This document shows, piece by piece, positions 11,146 to 42,135 of a stretch of DNA of 64,000 nt; position 1 is the stretch's first letter, and each line of letters begins with the position of its first letter. Position numbers and translations under genes: made by a program. The notes beneath the pieces are model-generated. The model was not told the DNA's origin and searched no databases. It was given only the letters and a program-made list of their open reading frames with translations. The DNA comes from a virus. The stretch lies in the IMG/VR virus record IMGVR_UViG_3300028197_000003, positions 62,001-126,000 of that record; one strand, written 5' to 3'.

Positions 11146-11152
11146 CTAAATA
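11146..11152 (+). promoter_or_regulatory. Late-type promoter box CTAAATA
   Basis: CTAAATA sits in the gap after gp46, three bases before a perfect hairpin. TTGACA at 11120 with a weak TACTCT 17 bases on could also serve host polymerase. It drives the exported beta-barrel-like gene at 11244. Confidence 0.6.
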
Positions 11153-11155
11153 AGT

Positions 11156-11228
11156 ATTCGTGCTTAGTCACGAATCTTTACACTACGTGGTCCTGTCGAA
11201 CCACTTCCATCTACGGGATATTTCCGTA
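11156..11228 (+). promoter_or_regulatory. Structured 5' leader with three hairpins
   Basis: Three consecutive stem-loops fill the leader: ATTCGTG/CACGAAT (11156-11162 with 11169-11175), GTGGT/ACCAC (11187-11191 with 11200-11204) and TACGGGA/TTTCCGTA region (11212-11218 with 11222-11228, including one G-T pair). The first begins where a late transcript should begin. A reading frame from TTG 11160 runs through the leader, but the downstream ATG with a signal peptide is clearly the protein start. This looks like a stability or translation-control element. Confidence 0.6.
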
Positions 11229-11243
11229 AGTAACCTAACAACC

Positions 11244-11615
11244 ATGATCAAGCCTTTTCTCGCAGCCTCTGCTGCTCTGTTCGCTTCAGCCGGTGCAGTA
11301 TTTGCTGGACCCTATGTCAACGTAGAATCCAATGCCTCCTGGACGGGTGCGGATTACAATTCGGCCACCACAGATTTTCACGTGGGGTACGAAGGACTTC
11401 TGGGTGACTCTGCTTCATACTACGTTCAAGGCGGCGCTAGTGTAGTCTCCCCTGACGGCAGCGAAAGCGACACCGTTCCTTCTGGTAAGGCAGGCGTCAA
11501 TTTCGCTGCTACTGAAGCAGTAGGTGTCTATGGTGAAGTCTCCTTCTTGGGAAGTGGAGACAGTGCTATCGACCGTGGATACGGTGGTAAACTCGGAGTC
11601 AAGTACAATTTCTGA
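11244..11615 (+). CDS. Exported outer-membrane beta-barrel-like protein
   Basis: From ATG 11244 the product has 123 residues with a classical signal peptide, MIKPFLAASAALFASAGAVFA, cleaved before GPYVNV (the first 20 residues of this are hydrophobic or small). The mature part is Gly/Ser-rich with alternating polar/hydrophobic strands and ends in KLGVKYNF, a terminal aromatic typical of outer-membrane barrel strands recognised by BamA. It resembles short cyanobacterial outer-membrane family proteins. Role unknown; changes to the host envelope or superinfection exclusion are possible. It stands alone between a late promoter and a terminator. Confidence 0.75.
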   Translation: MIKPFLAASAALFASAGAVFAGPYVNVESNASWTGADYNSATTDFHVGYEGLLGDSASYYVQGGASVVSPDGSESDTVPSGKAGVNFAATEAVGVYGEVSFLGSGDSAIDRGYGGKLGVKYNF

Positions 11616-11647
11616 TCAGAAGTAAAGTACAACTTCTAATTTTACAG

Positions 11648-11672
11648 GGGGGTCTTCGGACCCCCTTTTTTT
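11648..11672 (+). terminator. Factor-independent terminator
   Basis: GGGGGTC (11648-11654), loop TTCG, GACCCCC (11659-11665), then seven or more T. It ends the beta-barrel-like gene unit and is followed at once by a late promoter box. Confidence 0.92.
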
Positions 11673-11679
11673 CTAAATA
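11673..11679 (+). promoter_or_regulatory. Late-type promoter box CTAAATA
   Basis: CTAAATA follows the terminator T run directly, 24 bases before the membrane-protein gene at 11703. Confidence 0.55.
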
Positions 11680-11702
11680 GCCTCGAATATTATTAGTCTG
11701 GC

Positions 11703-12353
11703 ATGGTTATCCCTCAAACAGGGAGTCAACTATCAACCCAACAGGCACCTGAGAAGCGAAGTTCATCTTTGAAATGGTTTGCCTTAGGGCTTGGTGGATT
11801 ACTTGGCATTTCTCATCTCGCCATGATTGGTATGCTTGTAGGTAACAAGCAGATGGTTTACCCCAACCTCAATCTTCCCGTAAGCGACTATACTTCTTAT
11901 GAAGCGGAGGTAGGACCCCAAGGTTATCGGGTCAAGTACAACTCCAATGATCCAAAAACTCTCAGTAGAGTTCAGGAATTAGAACTGGATAAGTCTGCTG
12001 AACGACCTGGAGGTCTTTTTGGTGGTGGAAGTCCCCGAAGAAGTTCTGAGAAACGTACTCAGAAAAGTGTAGAAGAATATACAATGCAGGGTACTCTCAA
12101 CATGCAGAATGAGGGTGGTCTCCCAAAGATCATTGCAGCATCAGACCTGAACGTCGCGTGTATCGAGGCGGTCGGTGGTGGCAAGAGCCAAGGAAAACTC
12201 CTAGGTGCTAGTCTTGGTGCTGCGGCTGCTCCCGCTTTCATGGGGATTCCTATTGTTGGACCTCTTTTAGGTGGTATTGTTACTATGTTCTCCTCTGATA
12301 AAGCAGCCGAAATTGGTGGCAACATGGCAGAAAACTTCTCGGATGACTGCTAA
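11703..12353 (+). CDS. Membrane-anchored unknown protein (216 aa)
   Basis: The product has a polar N-terminus, a transmembrane helix near residues 24-46 (WFALGLGGLLGISHLAMIGM), a polar middle with charged linker, and a Gly/Ala-rich hydrophobic region near 165-195 (GASLGAAAAPAFMGIPIVGP). The latter resembles glycine-zipper segments. One Cys near 152 and one near the C-terminus could form a disulfide. The late promoter suggests a late or virion-associated role. No family recognised. Confidence 0.7.
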   Translation: MVIPQTGSQLSTQQAPEKRSSSLKWFALGLGGLLGISHLAMIGMLVGNKQMVYPNLNLPVSDYTSYEAEVGPQGYRVKYNSNDPKTLSRVQELELDKSAERPGGLFGGGSPRRSSEKRTQKSVEEYTMQGTLNMQNEGGLPKIIAASDLNVACIEAVGGGKSQGKLLGASLGAAAAPAFMGIPIVGPLLGGIVTMFSSDKAAEIGGNMAENFSDDC

Positions 12354-13209
12354 TCTTCATATCAATGCAGGGGCAGCGTACTCAGGTACAAAACCCCTGT
12401 GTTATAGCATTGAAAAAACTGGGTATGCACCTATGGGGGAGGATCGGAAAACAGAACCGAACCTCCTTTATTATTTGTCCCTTCAAGAGTCAGAGGCACA
12501 GTGGTACTGGGAGTCTCAGCATAGTCATAGGACCCAATCCTACATCAAAAAGAATTACACACTCTCTGACTACATTGAGTATGTGAAGAATAGAAATGGG
12601 TTGTTGGATTTTTCTAATAGCAATCAAGCATTACCTGATTATTTCCTGAAAATTATTGCCCCAATACTTCAAAAAGAATTCAATGTTACTGTCACGCTAA
12701 TCTGGAGAGACCCTGTTAGGAGATCTTATTCTCAACTCTCAGACATCTATCAAAAGAAAACTGGCAAGAAACAAACTCCTCAGTGGAAAATTCACAAGAC
12801 ATCTAATCTCAAAAAAGATCTAGCGGAAAGGCGTAAGTGGAGAGAAATTTCTGATAAATTTCCTACTAGCATTTCTTTTTGGAAACACTGTGTCGAGAAT
12901 AGAGACTGGCATATCTGTGACTATGCAGAAATCTATAAACGCTGGCAGTGCTTTGACAATATTCAACACCTGATCATGGAAGACTTGTGGTCATGTGATT
13001 CTGAACTCCTTCTGTTGGAAGAACTTCTTGACCGCCCTGTCGGTGTTCTATATGATAATGCTTACTGTTCTGCTGGGATTGCTGAAGGTCATCAGCAAAC
13101 TGATATGGAAGTTTTGAGTGAAGAAGATATTGCCTGGGGTCAAGATCAAATGTCATGGGTATATAATAATTTCAAAGATAGTTTTGGTTATATACCTTCT
13201 TCGTGGTAG
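12343..13209 (+). CDS. Sulfotransferase-like protein
   Basis: The start is ATG 12343, overlapping the previous gene by 11 bases; upstream in-frame codons lie wholly inside that gene. The 288-residue product begins with a strand and a loop INAGAAYSGTKPLCYSIEKTG, resembling the sulfate-donor (5'-PSB) loop of PAPS sulfotransferases. A second motif, LIWRDPVRRSYSQLSDIY, near residue 105 fits their 3'-phosphate-binding motif. The likely reaction is transfer of sulfate from PAPS to a sugar or protein. The usual GTT is GTK here, so activity is uncertain. Target unknown; virion or host-envelope glycans are an inference. Confidence 0.65.
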   Translation: MTANLHINAGAAYSGTKPLCYSIEKTGYAPMGEDRKTEPNLLYYLSLQESEAQWYWESQHSHRTQSYIKKNYTLSDYIEYVKNRNGLLDFSNSNQALPDYFLKIIAPILQKEFNVTVTLIWRDPVRRSYSQLSDIYQKKTGKKQTPQWKIHKTSNLKKDLAERRKWREISDKFPTSISFWKHCVENRDWHICDYAEIYKRWQCFDNIQHLIMEDLWSCDSELLLLEELLDRPVGVLYDNAYCSAGIAEGHQQTDMEVLSEEDIAWGQDQMSWVYNNFKDSFGYIPSSW

Positions 13210-13218
13210 TCTGTAATT

Positions 13219-13413
13219 ATGAAATTCCTAACGAATCCAGGTACGCTAACTTCCCTTCTAATGTTGGGAACGCTAGCACTGATAGGGGCACTGCATAACC
13301 ATGCCCACTTCACAATGGATAAGGATGCAGATGCTTATGTGAGGCAGTGGTGTAGAGCATCAGCAGAAAACAAAAAGACCTGCATCAGTTATGGCGGAAA
13401 CATGGACTATTGA
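13219..13413 (+). CDS. Small membrane-anchored protein (64 aa)
   Basis: The product has one hydrophobic helix (residues about 8-26, LTSLLMLGTLALIGAL), which may act as an uncleaved signal anchor, then a polar His-rich and Cys-containing tail (Cys near 45 and 55) presumably outside the cytoplasm. It starts nine bases after the sulfotransferase-like gene. No family recognised. Confidence 0.6.
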   Translation: MKFLTNPGTLTSLLMLGTLALIGALHNHAHFTMDKDADAYVRQWCRASAENKKTCISYGGNMDY

Positions 13414-13438
13414 CAAAACTTTATCTTTACTATATACT
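13410..13438 (+). promoter_or_regulatory. Consensus sigma70 promoter of the hli operon
   Basis: TTGACA (13410-13415), a 17-base spacer and TATACT (13433-13438) match the bacterial housekeeping consensus at 11 of 12 positions. The -35 overlaps the stop codon of the preceding gene. The start of the hli gene is 28 bases downstream. This suggests early or host-like transcription of the photosynthesis-related operon. Confidence 0.85.
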
Positions 13439-13465
13439 ATGTGAAGAATCATTACGGAACGTATC

Positions 13466-13684
13466 ATGACTGTTACAACTGAGGATGGTGGACGTACAAA
13501 CATGTATGCCACAGAACCTAGGATGTATATTTCAGAGACTGACGCAGAGCGTTATGGTTCCGAGACATATGCAGAACGTGCCGAAAAACTAAATGGACGT
13601 ACTGCTATGGTTGGATTTGTTGCTGCTGTTGTCTCTTATGCTTTCAGTGGTAGCGTATTCTTTTTTGGTGCGTTCGGATTCTAA
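13466..13684 (+). CDS. hli: High-light-inducible protein (Hli)
   Basis: The 72-residue protein carries the Hlip/ELIP chlorophyll-binding helix signature AEKLNGRTAMVGFVAAVVSY (about 39-58), with E, N and R at the pigment-ligand positions, after a polar N-terminal extension. Hlips bind chlorophyll and carotenoid and protect photosystem II under stress; cyanophages carry them to maintain host photosynthesis. It is the first gene of a five-gene micro-operon and ends in a TAATG overlap with the next gene. Confidence 0.93.
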   Translation: MTVTTEDGGRTNMYATEPRMYISETDAERYGSETYAERAEKLNGRTAMVGFVAAVVSYAFSGSVFFFGAFGF

Positions 13685-13908
13685 TGATTGAACTTCTCAC
13701 TTATTATGTGATTGGCGGTGCTCTTATTATTGGACCACCTGCAATCTTCCTGATCATTGCTATGATGGGAGCTATCCAAAATACGAAAGGTCGTATGGTT
13801 GGATACAAAGACCACAAAACTTACGGTGATAGTTCTATCTACGACCCATCACCAAAATTACCAGTAGATCAAACCAAATTTTACCTCACTTTAGGAGAAC
13901 ATTCGTGA
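13684..13908 (+). CDS. Small membrane protein in the hli operon (74 aa)
   Basis: One long hydrophobic helix (residues about 5-31, TYYVIGGALIIGPPAIFLII) is followed by a polar tail containing KGRMVGYKDHKTYGD. The gene is wedged between two Hli genes with one-base and four-base overlaps, which suggests action in the thylakoid membrane with them. It is not a photosystem subunit I recognise. Confidence 0.7.
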   Translation: MIELLTYYVIGGALIIGPPAIFLIIAMMGAIQNTKGRMVGYKDHKTYGDSSIYDPSPKLPVDQTKFYLTLGEHS

Positions 13909-14009
13909 AAGAAGCAGAACGTATCAACGGTTGGGCAGCAATGCTTGGTGTAATTGCAGCAATGGGTGCTTATGCATCTACAGGACAAATCATTCCAGGT
14001 ATTTGGTAA
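13905..14009 (+). CDS. hli: Mini high-light-inducible protein (34 aa)
   Basis: The start is GTG 13905, in a GTGA overlap with the previous gene. The 34 residues consist almost only of the Hlip helix: AERINGWAAMLGVIAAMGAY then STGQIIPGIW. The E..NG.AAMLG core and the C-terminal tGq.iPG are typical of Hlips. It is among the shortest Hlips possible, lacking any N-terminal extension. The translation stop overlaps the next ATG. Confidence 0.85.
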   Translation: MKEAERINGWAAMLGVIAAMGAYASTGQIIPGIW

Positions 14010-14077
14010 TGGCATTTATAGCAGTAGCACTACTGTTGCTAATTCCAATTGGTGCAGCAGTTAGGAAATCGTCATGA
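14009..14077 (+). CDS. 22-residue hydrophobic micro-protein
   Basis: ATG 14009 shares its A with the Hli stop, and the stop TGA forms an ATGA overlap with the next gene. The product is one short membrane helix, MAFIAVALLLLIPIGAA, with a basic end VRKSS, oriented with its C-terminus in the cytoplasm by the positive-inside rule. The size recalls small photosystem or cytochrome b6f subunits, but I see no match. It could also serve mainly to couple translation. Confidence 0.55.
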   Translation: MAFIAVALLLLIPIGAAVRKSS

Positions 14078-14211
14078 GTATAGAATGGGCACAGACAGTT
14101 ATTTTTCTCGTGGCACCATTTTTCTTTATGTTACTGTTGATTGAAACTGAGGATGACGATGGTCCACCAGACGGTGGACTAATGACACCAGTATTTCAAG
14201 GGACTACTTGA
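14074..14211 (+). CDS. 45-residue membrane protein with acidic tail
   Basis: The frame runs from ATG 14074 to TGA 14209-14211. A helix (residues about 8-24, TVIFLVAPFFFMLLLIE) is followed by an acidic, proline/glycine-rich tail TEDDDGPPDGG. It is the last gene of the hli operon; its 3' end lies inside the terminator stem. No family recognised. Confidence 0.6.
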   Translation: MSIEWAQTVIFLVAPFFFMLLLIETEDDDGPPDGGLMTPVFQGTT

Positions 14212-14226
14212 TTAGTCCCTTTTTTT
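14199..14226 (+). terminator. Terminator of the hli operon
   Basis: AGGGACTA (14199-14206), loop CTTGAT and TAGTCCCT (14213-14220) form a perfect eight-base stem followed by seven T. The stem includes the last codons and stop of the 45-aa gene. Confidence 0.9.
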
Positions 14227-14236
14227 GTGCTATAGT
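14208..14236 (+). promoter_or_regulatory. 45: Promoter before gp45 (TTGATT-17-TATAGT, extended -10)
   Basis: TTGATT (14208-14213), a 17-base spacer and TGCTATAGT ending at 14236 form a sigma70 promoter with extended -10. The -35 lies in the loop of the hli terminator, so the two signals overlap. It begins the main replisome unit. Confidence 0.65.
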
Positions 14237-14255
14237 TTAGCCTGTAAACTTCATT

Positions 14256-14942
14256 ATGAAACTCCGAGATACTATGAGACTGTCAGAAAAGACACTAAAG
14301 ATTCTGCAGAACTTTACGACGATCAATCAGTCTCTCTTCTTCAAAGAAGGTAATAAACTGCGAACAATTTCTGTCATGAAGAACGTTCTGGCAGAAGCGG
14401 AGATCGAGGAGTACATTCCTCGCGACTTTGCAATCTACGACCTACCTCAGTTTTTGAATACACTGTCTCTGTACAGGTCTCCTGAGGTGGATGTTTCTAC
14501 CAACACATCTCATGCCATTATCAAGGATGGTAACAACCGGGCAAAATTCTTCTTCTCTGATCCTAGTGTGATCGTTGCTCCTCCTGAAAAGGAGATGCAA
14601 TTGCCAAGCGAAGATGTTTCTTTTGCACTGACTGAAGCCGACCTGATTCGGATTCTAAAGTCTTCTTCTATCATGCAACTTCCCGATATGTCGGTGGTTG
14701 GTGAAGATGGGAGCGTAAAACTTGTGGTATCTGATAGGAAAAACGATACATCTAACGAGTATTCAATCCAAGTTGGTCAGACCGATCGATCGTTCTCCTT
14801 CAATTTCAAGATTGAGAACATTCGTTTGATCCCTAAAGACTATCAAGTAATTATTTCTGCCAAGAATTTGGCAAAATTCTCCAATAAAGATTACAACCTC
14901 ACTTACTTTATTGCTCTTGAGCCGGACTCTTCCTGCGAATAA
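14256..14942 (+). CDS. 45: Sliding clamp gp45
   Basis: The 228-residue length equals T4 gp45, and the start KTLKILQNFTTINQSLFFKE matches the clamp N-terminal domain; later segments RAKFFFSDPSVIV and the C-terminal NYFIALEP-like strand complete the two-domain clamp fold. The trimer encircles DNA, tethers gp43 polymerase, and in T4 also activates late transcription with gp33/gp55. It heads the replisome operon behind its own promoter. Confidence 0.95.
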   Translation: MKLRDTMRLSEKTLKILQNFTTINQSLFFKEGNKLRTISVMKNVLAEAEIEEYIPRDFAIYDLPQFLNTLSLYRSPEVDVSTNTSHAIIKDGNNRAKFFFSDPSVIVAPPEKEMQLPSEDVSFALTEADLIRILKSSSIMQLPDMSVVGEDGSVKLVVSDRKNDTSNEYSIQVGQTDRSFSFNFKIENIRLIPKDYQVIISAKNLAKFSNKDYNLTYFIALEPDSSCE

Positions 14943-14944
14943 AC

Positions 14945-15208
14945 ATGGTTACTTCACATGGGCATTGGTTAGGTCAACTTTCTCTAGCGTTAGAGAAACT
15001 TGATTGGCCTAATGATGCAGAGATCTTAGTAGAAATTGGTGGCACTCAAGTAAGTGGCATTGAACAACCAGAAGGTTACAATGAGAAGTGGGCATCTCCA
15101 TTTGGTCATCGTAAGTACAACAAAGATGCCTTTATTGTTATCAAACAAAAAGAAACTGTAATTTCTAGTAAACCACCAGCACCGAAAGAACCTGATGAGT
15201 CAAAATGA
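14945..15208 (+). CDS. Small unknown protein after the clamp (87 aa)
   Basis: The product begins MVTSHGHWLGQLSLALEKL, then a strand-rich segment with EILVEIGGTQVSGIEQPEGY and a proline-rich charged tail. It starts two bases after the gp45 stop. The gene that follows starts inside its 3' end. No family recognised; conserved placement beside the clamp suggests a replication accessory. Confidence 0.6.
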   Translation: MVTSHGHWLGQLSLALEKLDWPNDAEILVEIGGTQVSGIEQPEGYNEKWASPFGHRKYNKDAFIVIKQKETVISSKPPAPKEPDESK

Positions 15209-15353
15209 AAACTTCTTTTGTGAAGTTGATGACGATGGAATTTTGACTTTCCCTCAAGAACTCCTTGAGAAAACTGGTTGGAAGGAAGGAGACGTGTTAG
15301 AGTGGACTCCTAATGATGATGGGTCTTTTTCTTTGAGGAAACAGAATGAGTGA
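15195..15353 (+). CDS. AbrB/SpoVT-like mini-protein (52 aa)
   Basis: The frame runs ATG 15195 to TGA 15353. The product has the swapped-hairpin AbrB pattern: EVDDDGILTFPQELLEKTGW then KEGDVLEWTPNDDGSFSLRK. In this family two such chains interleave to bind DNA. It overlaps the preceding gene by 14 bases and gp44 by eight, and the RKQNE codons of its end include the gp44 start. A related end occurs in the small gene before gp62. Roles as a regulator or a translational coupler are both possible. Confidence 0.7.
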   Translation: MSQNENFFCEVDDDGILTFPQELLEKTGWKEGDVLEWTPNDDGSFSLRKQNE

Positions 15354-16290
15354 TGAATTTCTTTGGGTCGAAAAGTATCGACCTAAAACAATTGATGAGT
15401 GCATTCTTCCCAAGTCGATAAAGACGACTTTTACGGAGTTTGTAAATAGCGGTGAGATTCCTAATCTATTGCTTTCTGGTCCACCTGGAATAGGTAAGAC
15501 GACAGTAGCAAAGGCATTATGTCTTGAACTTGGAGCTGACTGCTATGTCATCAACGGATCAGATGAAGGAAGATTCCTGGACACGGTTCGTAATAAAGCA
15601 AAGAATTTCGCTTCAACTGTTTCTCTTACGTCTGAATCTAAGCACAAGGTCATCATCATTGATGAGGCAGATAATACTACACATGATGTACAACTCCTCC
15701 TCCGAGCTAACATCGAGGCGTTTTACAACAACTGTAGGTTTATCTTCACGTGCAATTACAAGAACAAAATTATTGAACCTCTCCACAGCCGATGCGCGGT
15801 GGTCGATTTCGGAGTTACAGGGAAAGAAAAACAACTGATTGCTGCTGGTTTCTTCAAGCGGTTGACTCAGATTCTTCAGATGGAGGGTGTTGAGTATGAA
15901 CCAAAAGTTGCAGTAGAACTTATCAATAAACACTTTCCTGATTGGAGACGTGTATTGAATGAGTGTCAAAGATATGCAACTAGTGGTAGAATAGATACAG
16001 GAGTTCTAGCAGACTTTAGTAACGTACAGGTCAATGAATTAGTTTCTTATATTAGTAAGAAGCAGTACCCCAATGTGCGGAAGTGGATTGTTCAAAATTT
16101 AGATAATGATCCCAATACAATCCTTAGAAAATTGTATGACTCAATCTATGAGCATATGAAACCAAAGTCTATTCCTGAGGCGGTACTAATTATTGCAAAA
16201 TACCAGTACCAGTCTGCTTTTGCAGCAGATCAAGAGATCAATCTCTTAGCAGCAATGACAGAAATTATGGTCAACTGCGAATTCAAGTAA
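15346..16290 (+). CDS. 44: Clamp loader large subunit gp44
   Basis: The 314-residue AAA+ protein begins LWVEKYRPKTIDECILP, then Walker A GPPGIGKTT (about 45-53), Walker B VIIIDEADN (about 101-109), and the SRC arginine-finger motif HSRCAVVDF (about 149). Four gp44 plus one gp62 load the gp45 clamp. Length is close to T4 gp44 (319). In T4 gene 62 follows directly; here six other genes lie between. Confidence 0.97.
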   Translation: MSDEFLWVEKYRPKTIDECILPKSIKTTFTEFVNSGEIPNLLLSGPPGIGKTTVAKALCLELGADCYVINGSDEGRFLDTVRNKAKNFASTVSLTSESKHKVIIIDEADNTTHDVQLLLRANIEAFYNNCRFIFTCNYKNKIIEPLHSRCAVVDFGVTGKEKQLIAAGFFKRLTQILQMEGVEYEPKVAVELINKHFPDWRRVLNECQRYATSGRIDTGVLADFSNVQVNELVSYISKKQYPNVRKWIVQNLDNDPNTILRKLYDSIYEHMKPKSIPEAVLIIAKYQYQSAFAADQEINLLAAMTEIMVNCEFK

Positions 16291-16303
16291 TCTAATCAGT
16301 TCA

Positions 16304-19472: not shown

Positions 19473-19848
19473 ATTGAAGGATTGGTTGAAGTCAATCAAC
19501 GAGACTAAGACTAATCTTATTGATGAAGATCCACTCCTAGAGTCCAAGTATCTTCCCTATATTATCAATCGATGTTTGTCTGGGCATATTGACTCATTGA
19601 TGTTTGTCAATGAAATGAATATCAATCATTCTCTTGAGTATAAATTACAATACGATTTTTTACTAAATACTCTGAGATCTAAGAAGAGATTTTCTCCTTG
19701 GGTCAGAAAAGATGAGCTAGTGAATCTCCAGATTGTCAAAAAATACTATGGGTATTCTGACGATAAGGCAAAGCAAGTGCTTCCTCTTTTATCTAACGAA
19801 CAGTTAGACATTATTCGACAAAAACTTGAGACCGGAGGGTTGCAATGA
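19465..19848 (+). CDS. 62: Clamp loader small subunit gp62
   Basis: The 127-residue helical protein begins LKDWLKSINETK and has IINRCLSGHIDSLMFVNEMN (about 34-53) and KKRFSPWVRKDE, which I recognise from cyanophage gp62. It is shorter than T4 gp62 (187). It completes the gp44/62 loader; placement directly before regA matches T4. It starts inside the 3' end of the 47-aa gene and overlaps regA by four bases. Confidence 0.85.
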   Translation: MPELKDWLKSINETKTNLIDEDPLLESKYLPYIINRCLSGHIDSLMFVNEMNINHSLEYKLQYDFLLNTLRSKKRFSPWVRKDELVNLQIVKKYYGYSDDKAKQVLPLLSNEQLDIIRQKLETGGLQ

Positions 19849-20279
19849 ATAGTGGAGAACCAATTTACGAATGGTCCCCTGCAAAAATGATTGAAGTGGT
19901 TCTGCAAGAACCCGACGACTTTCTAAAAGTACGTGAAACACTGACTAGAATCGGTGTTGCTTCCCGTAAAGAAAAGAAACTCTATCAGTCTTGTCATATT
20001 CTGCATAAGCAAGGTAGATATTTTATCGTTCACTTCAAGGAACTGTTTGCTCTGGATGGTAAGAGAGCGAACTTGACCATCAATGATGTGCAACGTCGTA
20101 ATCGTATTGTCAATCTCTTAGTTGATTGGGGATTAGTCTTGATCTCTGAAGAGAACCTTGCAAATATTGCAGAGGTTTCACCACTGAATCAAATCAAAGT
20201 GATTTCTTTCCGTGAAAAAGGTGAGTGGTCATTAGAGACTAAGTACAATATTGGTAAGAAGAAAACCCAAGAAGACTGA
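19845..20279 (+). CDS. regA: Translational repressor RegA
   Basis: The 144-residue protein contains MIEVVLQEPDDFLKVRETLT (from residue 15), YQSCHILHKQGRYFIVHFKE and VNLLVDWGL, closely matching T4 RegA throughout. The N-terminal 14 residues extend beyond T4 RegA, so the internal ATG at 19887 is an alternative start. RegA binds ribosome sites of early mRNAs such as gp44 and gp45 and blocks translation. Its position after 62 and before the polymerase is as in T4. Confidence 0.96.
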   Translation: MNSGEPIYEWSPAKMIEVVLQEPDDFLKVRETLTRIGVASRKEKKLYQSCHILHKQGRYFIVHFKELFALDGKRANLTINDVQRRNRIVNLLVDWGLVLISEENLANIAEVSPLNQIKVISFREKGEWSLETKYNIGKKKTQED

Positions 20280-20286
20280 GTTAGGT

Positions 20287-20294
20287 TATAAATA
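20287..20294 (+). promoter_or_regulatory. T4 late promoter, exact TATAAATA
   Basis: The perfect late octamer lies eight bases after the regA stop and about 58 bases before the hsp20 ATG. A strong hairpin begins two bases later. Confidence 0.8.
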
Positions 20295-20295: not shown

Positions 20296-20320
20296 GTGTG
20301 GATGCCTTCGGGGTCCACAC
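20296..20320 (+). promoter_or_regulatory. 5' leader hairpin of hsp20 mRNA
   Basis: GTGTGGA (20296-20302) pairs perfectly with TCCACAC (20314-20320); the inside contains a CC-TTCG-GG mini-stem. It sits where a late transcript should start and has no T tract, so it is not a terminator. A ribosome site AGGAG follows, about 10 bases before the ATG. Confidence 0.65.
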
Positions 20321-20351
20321 AAAAAACATCTGCCTTTACAGGAGATCTACT

Positions 20352-20792
20352 ATGTCTAACATCGAGAAATTTCGTGCAGCCGGTCTGCCGGATCTAATTG
20401 ATCGTATCAATAAGAATTCGCTTGGTTGGGATACATCATTCAACCAATTTTGGGAGTCCAACACGGTTGGTAACTATCCTCCCTATAACATTATCCAACT
20501 CAGTAACCACGAAACACGCCTAGAGATTGCACTGGCGGGGTTCAAGAGAGAGGAAGTCAAAGTATACTCTGAGTATGGCAAACTTGTCGTACAAGGTAAT
20601 CATGAAAGTGAGGATCCACGAGAAGCAAAGGTTGAGTATGTGCACCGTGGTCTTGCCAACCGTAGCTTTGAGCGTGCTTGGACGCTTAGTGAGGACGTAA
20701 AAATCGATAGTGTTACTTTTGAAGATGGACTTTTGATCGTAACACTAAAGAAAATTGTTCCTGATCATCATGCCCGAAAGGAGTACCTCTAA
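20352..20792 (+). CDS. hsp20: Small heat-shock protein Hsp20
   Basis: The start is ATG 20352 behind AGGAGATCT; an upstream in-frame ATG at 20298 lies inside the leader hairpin and is rejected. The 146-residue product has an alpha-crystallin domain: YNIIQLSNHETRLEIALAGF (about 45-64), VKVYSEYGKLVVQG, NRSFERAWTLSEDVKI (about 103) and the closing GLLIVTLKKIVP (about 124). It should hold unfolding proteins during infection. Hsp20 is a hallmark gene of marine cyanomyoviruses. The late promoter indicates late expression. Confidence 0.96.
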   Translation: MSNIEKFRAAGLPDLIDRINKNSLGWDTSFNQFWESNTVGNYPPYNIIQLSNHETRLEIALAGFKREEVKVYSEYGKLVVQGNHESEDPREAKVEYVHRGLANRSFERAWTLSEDVKIDSVTFEDGLLIVTLKKIVPDHHARKEYL

Positions 20793-21558
20793 ATACTACG
20801 ATGACAGTCGTAATTTAGTGTACAATAGAGTCCTTCATCATATCAAAGCATCAGATCTGCGGGAAACTGCAGGTCTGACTTTGCGTTTTAGGGATGACTT
20901 GAATCCTAAGTTTTGGATTGCGGGTAAACTGAGACCAGAAGTGCGCCGTGCACTGATGAATTTTGCAAAAGCGTTTGCAGATTTTGTTGATCTGGAAGAT
21001 TCTGCAATCCAAGACGTGTTGATGCTTGGTGGTAATGCTGGATACAACTATACTCAGTACAGTGACATTGATGTTCACCTCGTTATCGATCCAAAACTTA
21101 TACCAAAATGTGATCCGGATCTAATCTCGGATTATTTTATGGACAAGAAGACGTTATGGGAACTAACTCATGATGTCAAAGTCTTTGGAGCACCTGTAGA
21201 ACCATACATTGAACGCCCTGGTATTACTAGAAAGGTAAGTCAAGGTGTTTATAGTGTTCTAAAAAACAAGTGGGTGCAGGAACCGCAAAAATTTGATGGT
21301 GATATTGATGAATTTGAACTGACTAAGAAAACAAACAACCTGAAGAACAAGATTGACATCTTGATTCAGACAGAAAAACCTGAAGCACTCAAGTCAATCG
21401 TCAAGAAACTCCGCGCCGCACGTTCATCCTCGCTTGATAAGTATGGTGAGTATGGTTTTGAGAACCTTGTTTTCAAAGAGTTGCGAAACTCTGGGTATAT
21501 TGATAAGATGCGTAAGTCCATGGTACAATTGAAGAACAGAAGATTATCCCTTCCATGA
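20770..21558 (+). CDS. Nucleotidyltransferase-fold protein
   Basis: The start is ATG 20770, overlapping hsp20 by 23 bases. The 262-residue protein has LMLGGNAGYNYTQYSDIDVH (about 82-101), the hG[GS]...DhDh signature of the Pol-beta nucleotidyltransferase superfamily with two metal-binding Asp. The remainder is helical and basic, with KIDILIQTEKPEALKS late. It may add nucleotides to RNA, protein or a small molecule; minimal NTases act in toxin-antitoxin and tRNA repair systems. Occurs in other cyanomyoviruses after hsp20; specific role unknown. Confidence 0.8.
   Translation: MPERSTSKYYDDSRNLVYNRVLHHIKASDLRETAGLTLRFRDDLNPKFWIAGKLRPEVRRALMNFAKAFADFVDLEDSAIQDVLMLGGNAGYNYTQYSDIDVHLVIDPKLIPKCDPDLISDYFMDKKTLWELTHDVKVFGAPVEPYIERPGITRKVSQGVYSVLKNKWVQEPQKFDGDIDEFELTKKTNNLKNKIDILIQTEKPEALKSIVKKLRAARSSSLDKYGEYGFENLVFKELRNSGYIDKMRKSMVQLKNRRLSLP
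20789..20818 (+). promoter_or_regulatory. Large palindrome overlapping a late-type box
   Basis: CTAAAT (20789-20794) pairs with ATTTAG (20813-20818), and TACGA (20797-20801) with TCGTA (20808-20812), leaving a two-base bulge and a six-base loop. CTAAATA at its left arm matches the late box used elsewhere. It spans the hsp20 stop and the early codons of the nucleotidyltransferase gene. It may combine a late start, an mRNA hairpin and coupling control. Confidence 0.5.
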
Positions 21559-30637: not shown

Positions 30638-30666
30638 CTAAATAATTGAACGGTAAAATTACGTTC
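30638..30666 (+). promoter_or_regulatory. Late-type promoter CTAAATA with leader hairpin
   Basis: CTAAATA (30638-30644) follows the preceding stop by four bases. GAACG (30648-30652) pairs with CGTTC (30662-30666), placing a hairpin at the expected mRNA 5' end. GTAA/TTAC inside the loop could form an alternative fold. Confidence 0.6.
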
Positions 30667-35088: not shown

Positions 35089-35099
35089 GACACGGTAAC

Positions 35100-36071: not shown

Positions 36072-38362
36072 GCAACGGCACCAAGGTAGTAAAGCGTAAC
36101 GGTTCTATTGAACCTCTAGACCTTGATAAGATGCATTTGATGGTAGAGAAGGCATGCGAGGGACTCGCTGGCGTATCTGCCTCACAGGTTGAAATCCAAT
36201 CAGGTATCCAGTTCTTTGATGGTATCAGCACTGCTGAAATCCAAGAGATTTTGATCAAATCTGCTTCAGATCTTATTTCTCTGGAAGTTCCTAACTATCA
36301 GTTTGTTGCTGCTCGTCTGCTTCTGTTTTCAATCCGTAAACAACTTTACGGTTTGATTGACGACATGCCTCCTATGCATGAACATATTTCTAAGTGTATT
36401 GGACTAAGTGTTTATGATACAAGCATCATAGATAAGTATAGTGACAAAGATATTGCCACACTTGATACTTATATTGATCATGACCGTGACTATCTGTTTA
36501 CTTTTGCCGGTCTCCGTCAAGTAGTTGATAAGTATCTGGTCCAAGATCGTAGTAACGGAGAAGTCTTTGAGACTCCTCAGCAAATGTACATGATGATTTC
36601 GGCAACTTTGTTTGCTAATTATCCACAAGAAACTCGTCTGTCATATGTCAAAAGATACTACGACGCAATCAGCAGACACAAGATCAACATCCCAACGCCC
36701 ATCATGGCAGGTGTCAGAACACCCCTGCGACAATTTGCTTCTTGCGTTCTTGTTGATGTTGCTGACACCCTCGACAGTATCTTTAGCTCTGATATGGCTG
36801 TTGGCAAATACGTTGCACAACGGGCGGGTATCGGCATCAACGCAGGTGCAATCCGTGGCATCAACGCTAAAATCAGAGGCGGAGAGGTTCAACACACAGG
36901 TGTTATCCCCTTCCTCAAAAAGTTTGAATCAACTGTTCGATGCTGTACACAAAACGGTGTACGAGGTGGGTCAGCAACTGTCCACTTTCCAATCTGGCAT
37001 CAAGAGATAGAGGACATCATTGTTCTCAAGAACAACAAAGGCACAGAAGACAATCGGGTACGTAAACTTGACTACTCAATTCAATTCAGCAAAATTTTCT
37101 ACGAGCGTTTCATCCAGAATGGAGAAATTAGCTTATTCTCACCGCATGATGTACCAGGTCTGTATGATTCCTTTGGTACTGATAGGTTCGATGATTTATA
37201 TGTGGAGTTTGAACGAGATGAGTCTGTTCCAAGAAAGACTATCGGAGCACAAGATCTAATCCTTACAATCCTGAAGGAGAGGGCAGAGACTGGTCGTATT
37301 TACATCATGAATATCGACCATTGTAATACTCATTCTTCGTTTACTGATAGGGTATCGATGAGCAACCTGTGTCAAGAGATTACTCTCCCCACAGACCCTA
37401 TTGAGCACATCGATGGAGCGGGTGAAATTGCTCTTTGTATCCTGTCTGCTATCAACGTGGGTACGGTGCGATCTGACACTGAACTGGAAGACTATTGTGA
37501 GTTGACTGTTCGTGCTTTAGATGAATTGATTGAGTATCAAGAGTATCCTGTCAAAGCAGCAGAAATTAGCACAAAAGCACGTCGCTCACTGGGAATTGGG
37601 TTCATTGGTCTGGCACACTATCTTGCCAGACTTGGATACAGTTATGATAGTCAAGAGGCATGGGAAGCAGTCCATCAACTGACGGAATCATTCCAGTATT
37701 ATCTCCTCAAAGCGTCTAATAAATTGGCAGAAGAGAAAGGTGCATGTGAATACTTCTCTCGGACTAAATATTCTCACGGTCAACTACCAATAGATCATTA
37801 CAAGCGTGATGTTGACGAGATTACAACTGCTGAATTGCAACATGATTGGGATAGTCTTAGGGTATCTATCTCGAAGTATGGATTACGGCACTCAACACTG
37901 TCCGCACAAATGCCTTCGGAGAGCAGTTCCGTTGTGTCAAATGCCACCAACGGAATTGAGCCCCCGCGTGATTGTTTGTCCATCAAGAAAAGTAAAAAGG
38001 GGCCTCTCAAGCAGGTTGTTCCCCAGTATCAACGCTTGAAGAATCAGTACACTCTTCTCTGGGAAATGAAAGGTAACCGAGGTTACATCAATGTGGTTTC
38101 TGTTATGCAGAAATTCTTTGATCAGGCAATCTCTGGTAACTGGTCTTATAATCCCAGTGACTATGACAACAACGAAGTACCGGTGTCTGTCATGGCAAAT
38201 GATCTTCTAACCACATACAAGTATGGTTGGAAAACTTCTTATTATCAAAATACAAATGACCTCAAGTCGGACGAGATGGAAGAACCGGCAGTAGATCTTG
38301 CAAGTTTAGTTGCTGCGATCCAAACTGAAGACGAAGAAACCTGTGAATCCTGTGCAATTTAG
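36068..38362 (+). CDS. nrdA: Ribonucleotide reductase alpha subunit NrdA (class Ia)
   Basis: The start is ATG 36068 (ATGA overlap); the protein has 764 residues. It has an N-terminal ATP-cone KVVKRNGSIEPLDLDKMHLM, active-site strand RTPLRQFASCVLVDV (Cys near 221), NLCQEITLP with its Cys near 435, the SLGIGFIGLAHYLA segment, and the C-terminal redox pair CESC four residues from the end. It reduces ribonucleotides to deoxy forms for phage DNA. Paired directly with nrdB. Confidence 0.98.
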   Translation: MSNGTKVVKRNGSIEPLDLDKMHLMVEKACEGLAGVSASQVEIQSGIQFFDGISTAEIQEILIKSASDLISLEVPNYQFVAARLLLFSIRKQLYGLIDDMPPMHEHISKCIGLSVYDTSIIDKYSDKDIATLDTYIDHDRDYLFTFAGLRQVVDKYLVQDRSNGEVFETPQQMYMMISATLFANYPQETRLSYVKRYYDAISRHKINIPTPIMAGVRTPLRQFASCVLVDVADTLDSIFSSDMAVGKYVAQRAGIGINAGAIRGINAKIRGGEVQHTGVIPFLKKFESTVRCCTQNGVRGGSATVHFPIWHQEIEDIIVLKNNKGTEDNRVRKLDYSIQFSKIFYERFIQNGEISLFSPHDVPGLYDSFGTDRFDDLYVEFERDESVPRKTIGAQDLILTILKERAETGRIYIMNIDHCNTHSSFTDRVSMSNLCQEITLPTDPIEHIDGAGEIALCILSAINVGTVRSDTELEDYCELTVRALDELIEYQEYPVKAAEISTKARRSLGIGFIGLAHYLARLGYSYDSQEAWEAVHQLTESFQYYLLKASNKLAEEKGACEYFSRTKYSHGQLPIDHYKRDVDEITTAELQHDWDSLRVSISKYGLRHSTLSAQMPSESSSVVSNATNGIEPPRDCLSIKKSKKGPLKQVVPQYQRLKNQYTLLWEMKGNRGYINVVSVMQKFFDQAISGNWSYNPSDYDNNEVPVSVMANDLLTTYKYGWKTSYYQNTNDLKSDEMEEPAVDLASLVAAIQTEDEETCESCAI

Positions 38363-38399
38363 AAAAACTTCCGCCGACAAGAGTATGTCTGTCAAAGGC

Positions 38400-39530
38400 A
38401 TGACTGTGTTCAATGATACTTACGTGGACACTAAGACTCAACCAATGTTTTTTGGGGCACCTCTGGGTGTTCAACGATACGACTCATACAAGTATCCAGT
38501 CTTTGAAAAGCTGACCAATCAGATGCTTGGATACTTCTGGCGTCCTGAAGAGGTGTCCCTTCAGAAGGACCGTGGAGACTATAAGACTCTGCGTCCTGAG
38601 CAGAAGCACATCTTCACATCTAACCTGAAGTATCAGATCCTTCTGGACTCTGTGCAGGGTCGTGGTCCTGGTATGGCATTCTCTCCATACTGTGCTCTTC
38701 CTGAGTTGGAAGGTGCTATGAATGTGTGGCAGTTTATGGAGATGATCCACTCACGTTCTTACACTTACATCATCAAGAACATCTACCCAGATCCTGCTGA
38801 GGTCTTTGATACTATTCTGGATGACCAACGTATCCTGGCACGTGCTAAGAGTGTCACTAAAGCGTATGATGACTTCCTAGAAGTAGCAAATGAGTGGGGT
38901 GCTGGTAACATGTGGACAGCAGACTATGCTGATTCACCTACTGCTATCTACACTCGTAAGGAACTGAAGCGTCGTTTGTATCTGGCAATACAAAACGTCA
39001 ATATCCTTGAGGGTATTCGTTTCTATGTGTCTTTTGCTTGTTCATTTGCTTTTGGTGAACTGAAACTGATGGAAGGATCTGCCAAGATTATTTCTTTGAT
39101 TGCACGTGATGAGAACCAGCACACTGTACTGACTCAACAAATTATCAAGGCATGGCAGAAGGGTGATGATCCTGAGATGCTAGACATCATCAAAGAAGAA
39201 GAGCAAACCGTCACTGATATGTTTTCTAATGCAGTGGAAGAAGAGAAGGAGTGGGCACAGTATCTGTTCAAGGATGGCAGCATGATTGGTCTCAACGACA
39301 AACTCCTCGTCAAGTATGTGGAGTGGATCGCTAATAAGCGTATGCGTGCGATTGGTTTGAAACCCCTATACGACGCTCCAATCCATTCTAATCCTCTTCC
39401 TTGGACTGAGCACTGGATCTCTTCTAAGGGTCTTCAGGTCGCCCCACAGGAGACGGAGGTGGAGTCTTATGTCGTGGGGGGTATCAAGCAAGATGTTCAG
39501 AAAGATTCATTCAGTGGATTCCAACTCTAA
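38400..39530 (+). CDS. nrdB: Ribonucleotide reductase beta subunit NrdB
   Basis: The start is taken as ATG 38400 (MTVFNDTYVD, like E. coli/T4 MxTVFN); ATG 38385 is an alternative. The 376-residue protein retains the metal ligands and radical Tyr: LLDSVQGRGP (Asp), EMIHSRSYTYI (Glu, His and radical Tyr), NILEGIRFYVSFACSF (Glu) and IARDENQHT (Glu, His). It carries the tyrosyl radical for NrdA. The C-terminus SFSGFQL is the expected alpha-binding tail. Confidence 0.97.
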   Translation: MTVFNDTYVDTKTQPMFFGAPLGVQRYDSYKYPVFEKLTNQMLGYFWRPEEVSLQKDRGDYKTLRPEQKHIFTSNLKYQILLDSVQGRGPGMAFSPYCALPELEGAMNVWQFMEMIHSRSYTYIIKNIYPDPAEVFDTILDDQRILARAKSVTKAYDDFLEVANEWGAGNMWTADYADSPTAIYTRKELKRRLYLAIQNVNILEGIRFYVSFACSFAFGELKLMEGSAKIISLIARDENQHTVLTQQIIKAWQKGDDPEMLDIIKEEEQTVTDMFSNAVEEEKEWAQYLFKDGSMIGLNDKLLVKYVEWIANKRMRAIGLKPLYDAPIHSNPLPWTEHWISSKGLQVAPQETEVESYVVGGIKQDVQKDSFSGFQL

Positions 39531-39533
39531 CTG

Positions 39534-40001
39534 ATGAAACGGGTGCAACTAACAACTAACTTTTATAAAAGAGTTCAAGGTTATTGGTCCCTAGATCTTG
39601 CTACATGTCATAAAGAAGCATTTGAGATGCTGAATGACATAGACAGTCCACTATTGTTGGAACTATACGCTTACTCTAATGATCATTATGTTGCTAAGAA
39701 TTGGAGTGGTAAAACTCTAGGTGAATGGTGGTGGGATAATCGATCACCTGAGTGGGCATATAAGTTTATGAATGATATGCATAATCTTTACTATGAATTT
39801 AGTAAGAGAACCTTAGTTCAGGATGGAGTGACTTATAGATTGTCTTATGTTGATATGCACCCTGGGAATGTTTTAGTAAACCAGCATGGTGTCCCAAAGG
39901 TTATTGATTATGATTCTATAGGTTGGGTCCGAGAAAAAAATATTACATATTATCAGGCAAAAGCTACATATGCTATATCACACTTCCTAGAATTAGAATG
40001 A
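39534..40001 (+). CDS. Minimal kinase-like (APH/lipopolysaccharide-kinase type) protein
   Basis: The 155-residue protein contains SYVDMHPGNVLVNQHGVPKV (about 103-122) followed by IDYDSIGWV. This matches the catalytic loop (D-x-H-x-x-N) and metal-binding D-x-D of aminoglycoside phosphotransferase and LPS-kinase folds. The N-lobe is very short: the usual glycine loop and Lys strand are not visible. It may phosphorylate a sugar or lipid, or be a relic. It starts three bases after nrdB and overlaps the SGNH gene by four. Confidence 0.65.
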   Translation: MKRVQLTTNFYKRVQGYWSLDLATCHKEAFEMLNDIDSPLLLELYAYSNDHYVAKNWSGKTLGEWWWDNRSPEWAYKFMNDMHNLYYEFSKRTLVQDGVTYRLSYVDMHPGNVLVNQHGVPKVIDYDSIGWVREKNITYYQAKATYAISHFLELE

Positions 40002-40687
40002 AATTTTATTTTGATGGGGACTCTTTTACTTATGGTGGTAGTCTAGACAAAGTAGGTGCAGTTGCAGAAGAAGTTAGGTGGTCTAAGTTAGTATGTGATC
40101 ACTTTGGTGCTGAAGAAATAAACTTATCTACTGGTGGTGCTAGTAACGATGCAGTTATGAGGCATACGTTTAGTAGACCCACTACTGAGGTTCATGACTT
40201 TTATTTTTTTCAAACCACTATTCCTAGTAGAGGTGAGATTTTTGACCCTAAAACGCAGGGGTGGATGAAATATGGTCTGAATGAGGATGTAGAAACCAGA
40301 TGTATGGAACGATGGGGACCCATAGAAGGACCAAAATTTATACAGTGGATACGGTTTGGATTTAGTAGAGTCCATAATGAACATTATGGGAGGACTAAAG
40401 AAACTATTACATACAATGCATTGAAGTCTTACGTTGCATCTATAGGTCGAGCAAGAAGATCTTTCTTTAGTACGTTAGTGCGTTTTGAAAAAGACAAACC
40501 ATGTACTGATAATAAGTATGATCTGTATCACATAAACAAAATAAACAACTGGCCTAAGCATAAAGTTGTACCACCAGAACTATTGGTATATGATAAAATA
40601 CCCAACGATGGACACCCTTCTGTAGAAGGGCATAAGACAATAGCAAAATACGTTATAGATATAGTAACTGAAAGAATCAAAGATTGA
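39998..40687 (+). CDS. SGNH/GDSL hydrolase-like protein, copy 1
   Basis: The 229-residue protein begins MKFYFDGDSFTYGGSLDKVG with the GDS block (residues 7-9), then INLSTGGASNDAVMRH (block II/III, Gly and Asn) and NDGHPSVEGHKTIAKYV near the C-terminus (block V, Asp and His). These are the residues of SGNH esterases/acyl hydrolases; such enzymes acylate or deacylate sugars. Starts in an ATGA overlap. The next gene is a close copy. Confidence 0.82.
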   Translation: MKFYFDGDSFTYGGSLDKVGAVAEEVRWSKLVCDHFGAEEINLSTGGASNDAVMRHTFSRPTTEVHDFYFFQTTIPSRGEIFDPKTQGWMKYGLNEDVETRCMERWGPIEGPKFIQWIRFGFSRVHNEHYGRTKETITYNALKSYVASIGRARRSFFSTLVRFEKDKPCTDNKYDLYHINKINNWPKHKVVPPELLVYDKIPNDGHPSVEGHKTIAKYVIDIVTERIKD

Positions 40688-41376
40688 AGTTTTATTTTGA
40701 CGGTGATTCATTTACATATGGTGGGGGCCTCAAAAAAGTATTAGGTATAGATCCAGAAGATGTAAGGTGGTCTAAGTTAGTATGTGATCACTTTGGTGCT
40801 GAAGAAATAAACTTATCTTCTTGTGGTTCTAGTAACGATGCAGTTATAAGGCACATTTTCAGTAAACCTACTAGTGAGGTTTATGATTTTTATTTTCTGC
40901 AAACCACTATTCCTACTAGAGGTGAGTTTTTTGATCCTAAAACGCAGGGGTGGACAAGATATAGTTTTGGGAAGGGTATGAAGGAGAAATGTATATCTCG
41001 GTGGGGACCTATAGAAGGAGCAAAGTTTATACAGTGGATGGAGTTTGGATTTAGTAGAGTCTATAATGATCATTATGGAAAAACTAAAGAAACTATTGTA
41101 TACAATGCAATGAAAGCATACGTTGCATCTGTGGGTCGAGCAAGAAGATCTTTCTTTAGTACGTTGGTACCTTTTCAATGCACTGATAATAAGTATGATC
41201 TGTATCACATAGGCAAAAGGGACTGGCCTAAGGATAAACCTATGCCACCAGAACTATTGGTATATGATAAAATACCCGACGATGGGCATCCTTCTGTAGA
41301 AGGACATAAGACGATAGCAAAATACGTTATAGATATAGTAAGTGAGCGACTAAGTGATGAGGGTTCAGTCTGCTAA
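40684..41376 (+). CDS. SGNH/GDSL hydrolase-like protein, copy 2
   Basis: The start is TTG 40684 (LKFYFDGDSFTYGGGL), overlapping copy 1's stop; no ATG is near. The 230-residue protein keeps GDS, NLSSCGSSNDAVIRH and DDGHPSVEGHKTIAKYV, and by eye is identical to copy 1 at about three of four positions, including long shared stretches of DNA. It is a recent tandem duplicate. The two may act on different sugar or acyl groups. Confidence 0.82.
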   Translation: MKFYFDGDSFTYGGGLKKVLGIDPEDVRWSKLVCDHFGAEEINLSSCGSSNDAVIRHIFSKPTSEVYDFYFLQTTIPTRGEFFDPKTQGWTRYSFGKGMKEKCISRWGPIEGAKFIQWMEFGFSRVYNDHYGKTKETIVYNAMKAYVASVGRARRSFFSTLVPFQCTDNKYDLYHIGKRDWPKDKPMPPELLVYDKIPDDGHPSVEGHKTIAKYVIDIVSERLSDEGSVC

Positions 41377-41692
41377 GGCAAAGGGTAGGAGACTACAACA
41401 GTGGGTGAGAGACATGCTCATCGAGATGTTAGAAGTACATCCTGAGGATGTTGAATCTAGATCTATGGGTGCGGGTGGTGAAGACATCATCATGGCACGT
41501 GCAGCTAGACAAAAGTTTCCTTTCTCAGTAGAATGTAAGAACACAGAAAAACTAAACGTCTGGGATGCGTATGACCAGGCATGTGCTAACTCTGGTGATT
41601 ACGAACCAATTCTCTTTATAAAAAAGAATGGCAGGAAACCACTCGCTATACTCGATGCGGAAAGCTTTATTAGATCCAACCGACATGAATGA
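41357..41692 (+). CDS. Small PD-(D/E)xK nuclease-like protein
   Basis: From ATG 41357 the 111-residue product reads KAKGRRLQQWVRDMLIEMLE, then GAGGEDIIMARAARQKFPFS and VECKN. The D43 in GGED and E59-C-K61 fit the PD-(D/E)xK core as in small Holliday-junction or VRR-type nucleases of phages. It likely processes recombination or replication structures. It overlaps both neighbours. Specificity unproven. Confidence 0.75.
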   Translation: MRVQSAKAKGRRLQQWVRDMLIEMLEVHPEDVESRSMGAGGEDIIMARAARQKFPFSVECKNTEKLNVWDAYDQACANSGDYEPILFIKKNGRKPLAILDAESFIRSNRHE

Positions 41693-41921
41693 TTGGAGGT
41701 ACTCTGAGGAACGAATGCTACTTCGTGCTGAAGTATTTCGTGCTCTTTCTCATCACCTAAATGATCATTGCAGACTCGTATATGAGTTTTGTCATGACTG
41801 GGTGAGTCAAGGTAATAAAACAACTATTGGAGTCGAGCAAAGATTCCAAGACTTCATCCGTGATTGTGCCGAAACTTTGTACACACTAACTCCTATTGAG
41901 GAACATGCAGAAAATCATTAG
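41685..41921 (+). CDS. Small unknown protein (78 aa), paralogue of the one at 42890
   Basis: The start is ATG 41685 (MNDWRYSEERML), overlapping the nuclease by eight bases; two upstream in-frame ATGs lie inside the nuclease gene. The segment CRLVYEFCHDWVSQGNKTTI then GVEQRFQDFIRD resembles VRKFCRDWATSGKSAPLGTL then TKVDFYFRDL in the protein at 42890. Short helical proteins of unknown role. Confidence 0.6.
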   Translation: MNDWRYSEERMLLRAEVFRALSHHLNDHCRLVYEFCHDWVSQGNKTTIGVEQRFQDFIRDCAETLYTLTPIEEHAENH

Positions 41922-42111
41922 CATCATGTCGATTTTTTCATTCGCAACTAGTCTTGCTGTTGTCAGCACCGCTGGTTATGTGTATGTAAATAAAGACAAT
42001 ATCACAAACAACATCAAAGAGCAGGTCACCAAAGGAATTGAGGAAGCAATTGTAGGTCAAATGGATGTTCCTGCTTTACCTGAGACCACTGGAGGTGTTC
42101 TTCCATTCTAA
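41905..42111 (+). CDS. Small membrane-anchored protein (68 aa)
   Basis: The start is ATG 41905 (MQKIISIMSIFSFATSLAVV); TTG 41896 is an alternative. The hydrophobic N-terminus (about 3-25) is a signal anchor or signal peptide, followed by KDNITNNIKEQVTKGIEEAI, a helix, and a proline-rich end. Similar small proteins are reported among cyanophage virion or membrane proteins. Unknown function. It overlaps the preceding gene by 17 bases. Confidence 0.6.
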   Translation: MQKIISIMSIFSFATSLAVVSTAGYVYVNKDNITNNIKEQVTKGIEEAIVGQMDVPALPETTGGVLPF

Positions 42112-42135
42112 ATAATGCCAGTGTCTTTCTGGCAT
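42108..42135 (+). promoter_or_regulatory. Late-type promoter CTAAATA with perfect leader hairpin
   Basis: CTAAATA (42108-42114) overlaps the preceding stop. ATGCCAG (42115-42121) pairs perfectly with CTGGCAT (42129-42135) around a seven-base loop. The ATG inside the left arm would be sequestered; the ATG immediately after the hairpin (42136) starts the next protein. Confidence 0.65.

Follow-up and report, generated by a model that had tools for sequence, protein, structure and literature searches.

Structured leaders behind late promoters of a T4-like cyanophage: a probable ROSE-type RNA thermometer at hsp20 and a three-hairpin leader at an outer-membrane-protein gene

The window analysed here is a stretch of 64,000 nucleotides (nt), bases 62001-126000 of the 192,351-base virus record IMGVR_UViG_3300028197_000003, and its subject is the pair of structured mRNA leaders found behind late-type promoter boxes at hsp20, a small heat shock gene, and at an outer-membrane-protein gene. 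The record is that of a T4-like cyanophage of 192 kb. The window carries genes of that kind (SbcC-like gp46, RegA, DNA polymerase gp43, ribonucleotide reductase and hsp20), and its DNA is similar to that of marine Synechococcus and Prochlorococcus phages. In T4, late transcription begins at the sixth base after the box, and this rule supplies the expected start (+1) at every site discussed below. Late-type boxes lie overwhelmingly on the plus strand (60 versus 7 on the minus strand). The motif NATAAATA is the late-promoter motif reported for such phages (S-PM2, PMC2984593).

The hsp20 locus contains the following features.

20287 to 20294, plus strand: late-type promoter box TATAAATA before hsp20, read from the sequence
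20296 to 20320, plus strand: hairpin I of the leader, GUGUGGAU[G]CC(UUCG)GGGUCCACAC, with one unpaired G in the stem and a UUCG loop
20328 to 20346, plus strand: hairpin II, AUCU[G]CCU(UUAC)AGGAGAU, ROSE-like, covering the Shine-Dalgarno sequence
20352 to 20792, plus strand: hsp20, small heat shock protein (ATG at 20352, TAA at 20790-20792; phrog_432, Pfam PF00011)

Relatives of hsp20 are encoded in 506 phage records, mostly cyanophages. The hsp20 leaders compared here, re-read from the gene start, comprise 49 distinct sequences, and the leader abuts the start codon in all of them. Hairpin I is present in 48 of the 49: its stem contains a single unpaired G, then one or two C-G pairs and, in almost every case, a tetraloop. 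A stem comparable to hairpin II covers the Shine-Dalgarno sequence in every leader, mostly as CUC[G]CUU-AAGGAG; the parser required the unpaired G in both stems and the C-G pairs in hairpin I, and the universality of those letters is partly built in. Independently of the parser, GCC-N4-GG or GC-UUCG-G is present in 46 of the 49 leaders, and CTCGCTT is directly visible in most. The loops of hairpin I interchange between UUCG (21 leaders) and GNRA (20 leaders), which is a mark of selection on RNA. A test that used only the anchors and was blind to pairing found nine distinct pairs of hairpin I arms in which all 36 of the cells are paired, compared with 25.5 ± 2.3 when arms are assigned at random. 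Across the hsp20 alignment (A4), 95.7% of cells are paired and covariation reaches 0.295 versus 0.139, a value that no shuffle matched.

In most relatives hairpin I begins 4-7 nt past a late box or a TATAAT-type box. Its first base lies 4-6 nt past the late box in most leaders and 1-2 nt past it in the window's clade, which has a longer stem, while other hsp20 leaders carry TATAAT 6-7 nt ahead of the stem. Both spacings fit a predicted start at or beside the hairpin I stem.

This architecture resembles that of the ROSE thermometers. The leader belongs to a small-heat-shock gene (PF00011), and the last hairpin before the gene takes the Shine-Dalgarno sequence into a stem whose other arm has an unpaired G. 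The Rfam model ROSE_3 (RF02523) aligns both hairpins end to end at window positions 20296-20357, with 21.7 bits and an E value of 0.011 for 171 bases, and scores 12-25 bits at the hsp20 leaders of about a dozen relatives. UCGCU stands in most relatives' leaders (within CUCGCUU), and UUGCU in that of S-CRM01. A model built from phage hsp20 leaders only, R3, matches window positions 20300-20354 at 59 bits, an identical leader having been in its training set. R3 also matches eight of nine named cyanomyovirus isolates (S-CAM9, P-HM2, S-SKS1, S-RIM2, Syn30, P-RSM3, S-CRM01 and ACG-2014d), of which the S-RIM2 leader is the same as a training row and the other seven are identical to none; S-TIM5 is the only one of the nine in which R3 finds no hsp20 leader.

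Matches extend to bacteria. Of 46 loci in the bacterial and archaeal collection with a gene for an Hsp20 relative, 33 give an R3 match with E<1, usually directly upstream of the gene, and UYGCU stands ahead of the start in nearly all of the bacterial-collection Hsp20 leaders. The best two matches and the fourth are likely phage contigs, and the third belongs to a Pelagibacteraceae metagenome-assembled genome (39 bits, E 1.8e-8). The hsp20 leader of a Reyranella metagenome-assembled genome, which R3 did not list, passes the Rfam ROSE (RF00435) cut-off, scoring 48.2 against 45. A scan of 81 host-family genomes, limited to scoring the 70 top candidates in each, yielded no convincing copy, the two weak matches (E 0.01-0.02) lying near no hsp20 relative. 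Together, the bacterial matches and the lack of a convincing host-family copy suggest that the leader is of proteobacterial type and does not derive from the present hosts.

Two side observations concern these collections. Four Hsp20 and Phage_OMP loci in bacterial or archaeal assemblies look like phage contigs, with the same leaders and Hsp20 proteins 54-60% identical. An unverified record labelled Campylobacter phage A11a, whose identity is doubtful, contains a gene resembling hsp20 whose Shine-Dalgarno hairpin, UACUCGCUU...AAGGAG, is ROSE-like, and it gives a weak R3 match of 17.6 bits.

These features suggest a model in which the late promoter yields an hsp20 mRNA with a leader of about 55-60 nt that acts as a short ROSE-type RNA thermometer. 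In cool conditions the weak hairpin II would pair with the Shine-Dalgarno sequence and mask the ribosome site; a rise in temperature would melt it, allowing the phage small heat-shock chaperone to be made. Hairpin I would remain intact and guide folding, perhaps also shielding the 5' end. The Pseudomonas ibpA leader offers a precedent: it consists of two hairpins in 61-62 nt, of which hairpin II melts and hairpin I is stable in the laboratory (Krajewski et al. 2013, PMC3669281). The predicted stability of hairpin II in the window is low, at -5.3 kcal/mol at 25 °C and -3.6 kcal/mol at 37 °C. Since the hsp20 hairpin sits within a larger leader that covers the ribosome site and is common to bacterial heat-shock genes, control of translation would explain it better than mRNA stability alone.

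Several results weigh against this model. The ROSE_3 cut-off of 43 bits is reached neither by the window leader (21.7) nor by those of relatives (25.4 at most), and a search of the window and relatives at Rfam gathering cut-offs returned no match. The exact anti-Shine-Dalgarno motif U(U/C)GCU is absent from the window leader, which has CUGCC with a matching AGGAG. When the window leader is folded with 30 nt of coding sequence, other pairings form at the ribosome site, and no rise in its accessibility is predicted up to 50 °C. Finally, the two-sided changes in the hsp20 alignment all fall in hairpin I and none in the pairs of hairpin II, whose support comes from the variant clades that could be parsed and from its universality.

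The folding results lend themselves to a different explanation, in which hairpin I protects the 5' end, hairpin II sets a constant low rate of translation and temperature plays no role in the phage. When folded computationally, the ribosome site shows little temperature response, and hairpin II of the window ranks with the most stable of the phage forms compared. Against this stand the layout itself, which is common to bacterial small-heat-shock leaders and is temperature-responsive in its Pseudomonas versions (PMC3669281), and the fact that simple folding ignores non-standard pairs, among them the heat-sensing pairs of ROSE. A constant-rate leader is judged unlikely.

The neighbourhood of hsp20 raises another possibility, that the leader is a protein-binding operator, with RegA, for example, repressing translation from one of the two hairpins. 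The regA gene (19845-20279) lies directly upstream of hsp20 here, as it does in P-HM2 and S-CRM01, and proteins commonly bind RNA stems in which an unpaired base is followed by two pairs and a tetraloop. The same layout nonetheless occurs at bacterial hsp20 genes, at least one of which has a leader that is an Rfam ROSE member, and in phages whose annotated gene upstream of hsp20 is not regA. An operator is very unlikely.

The second structured leader precedes the outer-membrane-protein gene, with the following features.

11146 to 11152, plus strand: late-type box CTAAATA, with a late-type box upstream in 88 of 104 relatives
11156 to 11175, plus strand: 5' hairpin of the leader, AUUCGUG-6-CACGAAU, its position kept and its sequence free
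11187 to 11204, plus strand: second leader hairpin, with conserved GUCGA in the loop (two-sided changes in 6 of 6 pairs; 87% of cells paired)
11212 to 11228, plus strand: third leader hairpin, UACGG/CCGUA here and UGCGG/CCGCA in most relatives (two-sided changes in 4 of 5 pairs; 99.4% of cells paired)
11244 to 11615, plus strand: Phage_OMP gene, a cyanophage outer-membrane-protein-like beta barrel (ATG at 11244; Pfam PF24653 at 159.9 bits against a cut-off of 27; phrog_417)

The three hairpins are conserved in different ways. Of 36 distinct leaders, 30 have a first stem of 5 bp or more at offsets 4-7 from the box (shuffled sequence gives 3.9 ± 1.7), and the stem sequences are unrelated. Hairpins two and three, the latter ahead of the start codon, show two-sided changes in 10 of their 11 pairs (alignment A3), with covariation of 0.622 versus 0.237; none of 500 shuffles was as high, and the covariation is lost when the partners are slid. 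A model of these two hairpins, R1, matches window positions 11182-11246, five named isolates (Syn1, Syn33, S-RIM2, MED4-213 and P-RSM3) and ACG-2014d, with no match in the T7-like P-SSP10. In the 81 host-family genomes its matches are at chance level, save one beside a Phage_OMP relative, and that one sits in a single-cell assembly that also contains one of the phage-contig-like hsp20 loci described above (L258). Rfam gives no match to this leader even at E 10, and hairpins two and three are a candidate new phage RNA family. The first hairpin probably shields the 5' end from decay of the RNase E type, and hairpins two and three resemble an element for regulation or for docking the ribosome.

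Promoters in some relatives bear on where these transcripts might begin. MED4-213 and P-RSM3 have composite early and late promoters some 130 nt ahead of the Phage_OMP gene. In these, TTGACA stands about 17 bases before a -10 box that merges with the late box (in P-RSM3, TATACTAAATA), and both promoter classes would consequently share a start beside the hairpin. Six other Phage_OMP leaders are longer and have an extra sigma-70-like promoter between hairpins one and two, from which early transcripts would start near hairpin two.

The sequence-only reading of this stretch had reported seven late-type boxes with inverted repeats, at 3555, 11156, 20296, 20789, 30648, 42115 and 47223, and had proposed that each stem forms the 5' terminus of its mRNA as part of a recurrent promoter-plus-hairpin cassette that stabilises late transcripts. 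All seven boxes and repeats are present in the sequence, as are the perfect 7-bp stems at 11156-11175, 20296-20320 and 42115-42135. The proposed generality does not hold. Among the 51 promoter-like boxes of this genome, 7 are followed at offsets 1-8 by a stem of 6 bp or longer, where dinucleotide shuffles give 2.3 ± 1.5 (the maximum of 300 being 7), and 11 have stems of at least 5 bp, against 7.8 ± 2.6, a modest excess owed to a few genes. When boxes from 247 loci, drawn from this phage and its relatives, were sorted by the gene that follows them, stems were confined to a few gene families, and most late gene families lacked a stem in every relative. Once four families are set aside, 288 distinct promoter-like boxes remain from related phages; stems of 5 bp or more at offsets 4-7 follow 35 of them, where shuffled sequence gives 30.4 ± 5.1. 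The strong excess is limited to particular genes, the outer-membrane-protein gene and hsp20, and the level at the 288 other boxes argues against any general cassette.

A general stabiliser, in which 5'-terminal hairpins after late promoters block 5'-end-dependent decay, would draw on the placement of the stem's 5' base 4-7 nt past the late box with free sequence at two genes, on the induction of host RNase E by other cyanophages (PMC9692554), and on the protective role at the mRNA 5' end that the Pseudomonas ibpA authors suggested for hairpin I (PMC3669281). Given the stemless majority of late gene families, the unenriched boxes and an expected +1 that cuts or removes four of the seven window stems, it is highly improbable. 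A 5'-terminal placement is predicted for the first hairpins of hsp20 and the outer-membrane-protein gene, where the stem is conserved and lies mostly 4-7 nt after the box, and the expected conservation and covariation among related cyanophages are found at these same two leaders. Least credible is the idea that the hairpins function at the DNA level or weakly terminate read-through or antisense transcripts at operon borders, their proximity to late boxes being mere packing: on the minus strand a hairpin followed by TATTTA does resemble a weak terminator, a terminator scan lists 11175-11156 on that strand and a genuine terminator directly precedes the box at 11673, but the UUCG and GNRA loops, the conserved unpaired G and the pairing of the ribosome site point to plus-strand RNA, the outer-membrane-protein gene has two additional covarying hairpins, and the boxes are almost all on the plus strand.

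The hairpins are thus better described as gene-specific structured leaders than as a general late-mRNA cap: probably a ROSE-type thermometer at hsp20 and, at the outer-membrane-protein gene, a leader with a 5' hairpin and two covarying hairpins. The earlier reading was real at two places, too wide as a rule, and overlooked the larger structures, namely the second hairpin over the hsp20 ribosome-binding site and the two further hairpins in the leader at 11182-11246.

The seven inverted repeats differ in kind and are not one element. With the expected +1, most of the 11156 stem, the core of the 20296 stem and all of the 47223 stem would be retained in the RNA; the 42115 stem would lose its 5' arm and the 30648 stem two bases. 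The stems at 3555 and 20789 incorporate bases of the box itself, so an RNA starting after the box can form neither of them whole. Two further features belong to this set.

42115 to 42135, plus strand: inverted repeat beside the late box at 42108, starting at offset 1, its 5' arm preceding the expected +1
47218 to 47246, plus strand: sigma-70-type promoter TTGACA-N17-TATACT, read from the sequence, its arrangement retained in one relative

The repeat at 47223-47239 (7 bp including one G-U) is essentially the 17-base spacer of that promoter, and an early promoter may account for the place at least as well. At 42115, the phrog_2714 family is weakly enriched, with stems of at least 6 bp in 7 of 55 leaders against 1.8 ± 1.3 shuffled; with so weak an excess and a window stem cut by the expected +1, it was rejected as a hairpin family. 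The leaders of this family, in the window (42108-42136) and in relatives, are very short, lack an evident Shine-Dalgarno sequence, precede a DUF6450 gene and often have TGCC close to the predicted +1. The 20789 stem was likewise rejected, its outer stem being altered in relatives and its box overlapping the hsp20 stop codon. Such an overlap (CTC TAA ATA, window 20787-20795) recurs at hsp20 ends in relatives, several of which have a terminator after it. The repeat at 30648-30666 is a 5-bp stem, kept with an altered loop in one relative only, too few sequences to judge, and no related sequence was found among the loci for 3555.

Other hairpins were seen near late boxes. A strong terminator at 11646-11673 (a stem of the AGGGGGG-UCUUCG-ACCCCCU type with a U run) runs straight into the late box at 11673 and is retained in two relatives. 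At psbA of this phage (genome base 128168) a late box precedes a perfect hairpin of 8 bp, UACGUUAC-AAAGC-GUAACGUA, which is not family-wide: perfect stems occur in 1 of 7 psbA leaders, with no enrichment.

No account of a cyanophage thermometer or leader was found among open-licence papers; the hsp20 leader is a ROSE-like variant, and the outer-membrane-protein leader is undescribed. The broadest claim is evenly balanced: that marine cyanophages carry a working proteobacterial-type ROSE thermometer behind a late promoter, absent from the sampled hosts, through which seawater temperature sets the dose of chaperone, along with a second, undescribed class of three-hairpin leader on the outer-membrane-protein gene. 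If the hsp20 leader responds to temperature, then a phage gene would come under the direct influence of temperature while major photosynthesisers of the ocean are being infected. The element is small, cheap to test and gives a clear single-base prediction. The outer-membrane-protein leader is a strongly covarying phage RNA outside Rfam. The negative outcome also counts, in that late cyanophage mRNAs do not in general start with hairpins.

Stabilising hairpins at the 5' terminus of mRNA are known from E. coli ompA and the late transcripts of phage T7. The outer-membrane-protein leader shares with them a stem of free sequence and fixed position at or near a +1 that is here predicted, and differs in having two further conserved hairpins. 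ROSE-like thermometers at cyanobacterial small heat shock protein genes (Cimdins et al. 2014), so far as they are described in PMC4166951, likewise place a Shine-Dalgarno hairpin at a small-heat-shock gene, whereas the phage leader appears nearer to the proteobacterial ones, the phage model having no convincing match in the host-family genomes. Relative to the Rfam families, the phage leaders stay at about 12-25 bits against the ROSE_3 cut-off, yet ROSE_3 aligns both hairpins over their full length and one bacterial leader of an Hsp20 relative passes RF00435. The closest parallel is the ROSE-like leader of Pseudomonas ibpA (PMC3669281). The putative thermometer described here is phage-borne, lies behind a T4-type late promoter and has CUGCC in its anti-Shine-Dalgarno arm in the window; both precede a small-heat-shock gene with a leader of about 60 nt that combines a stable hairpin I with a weak hairpin II covering the Shine-Dalgarno sequence.

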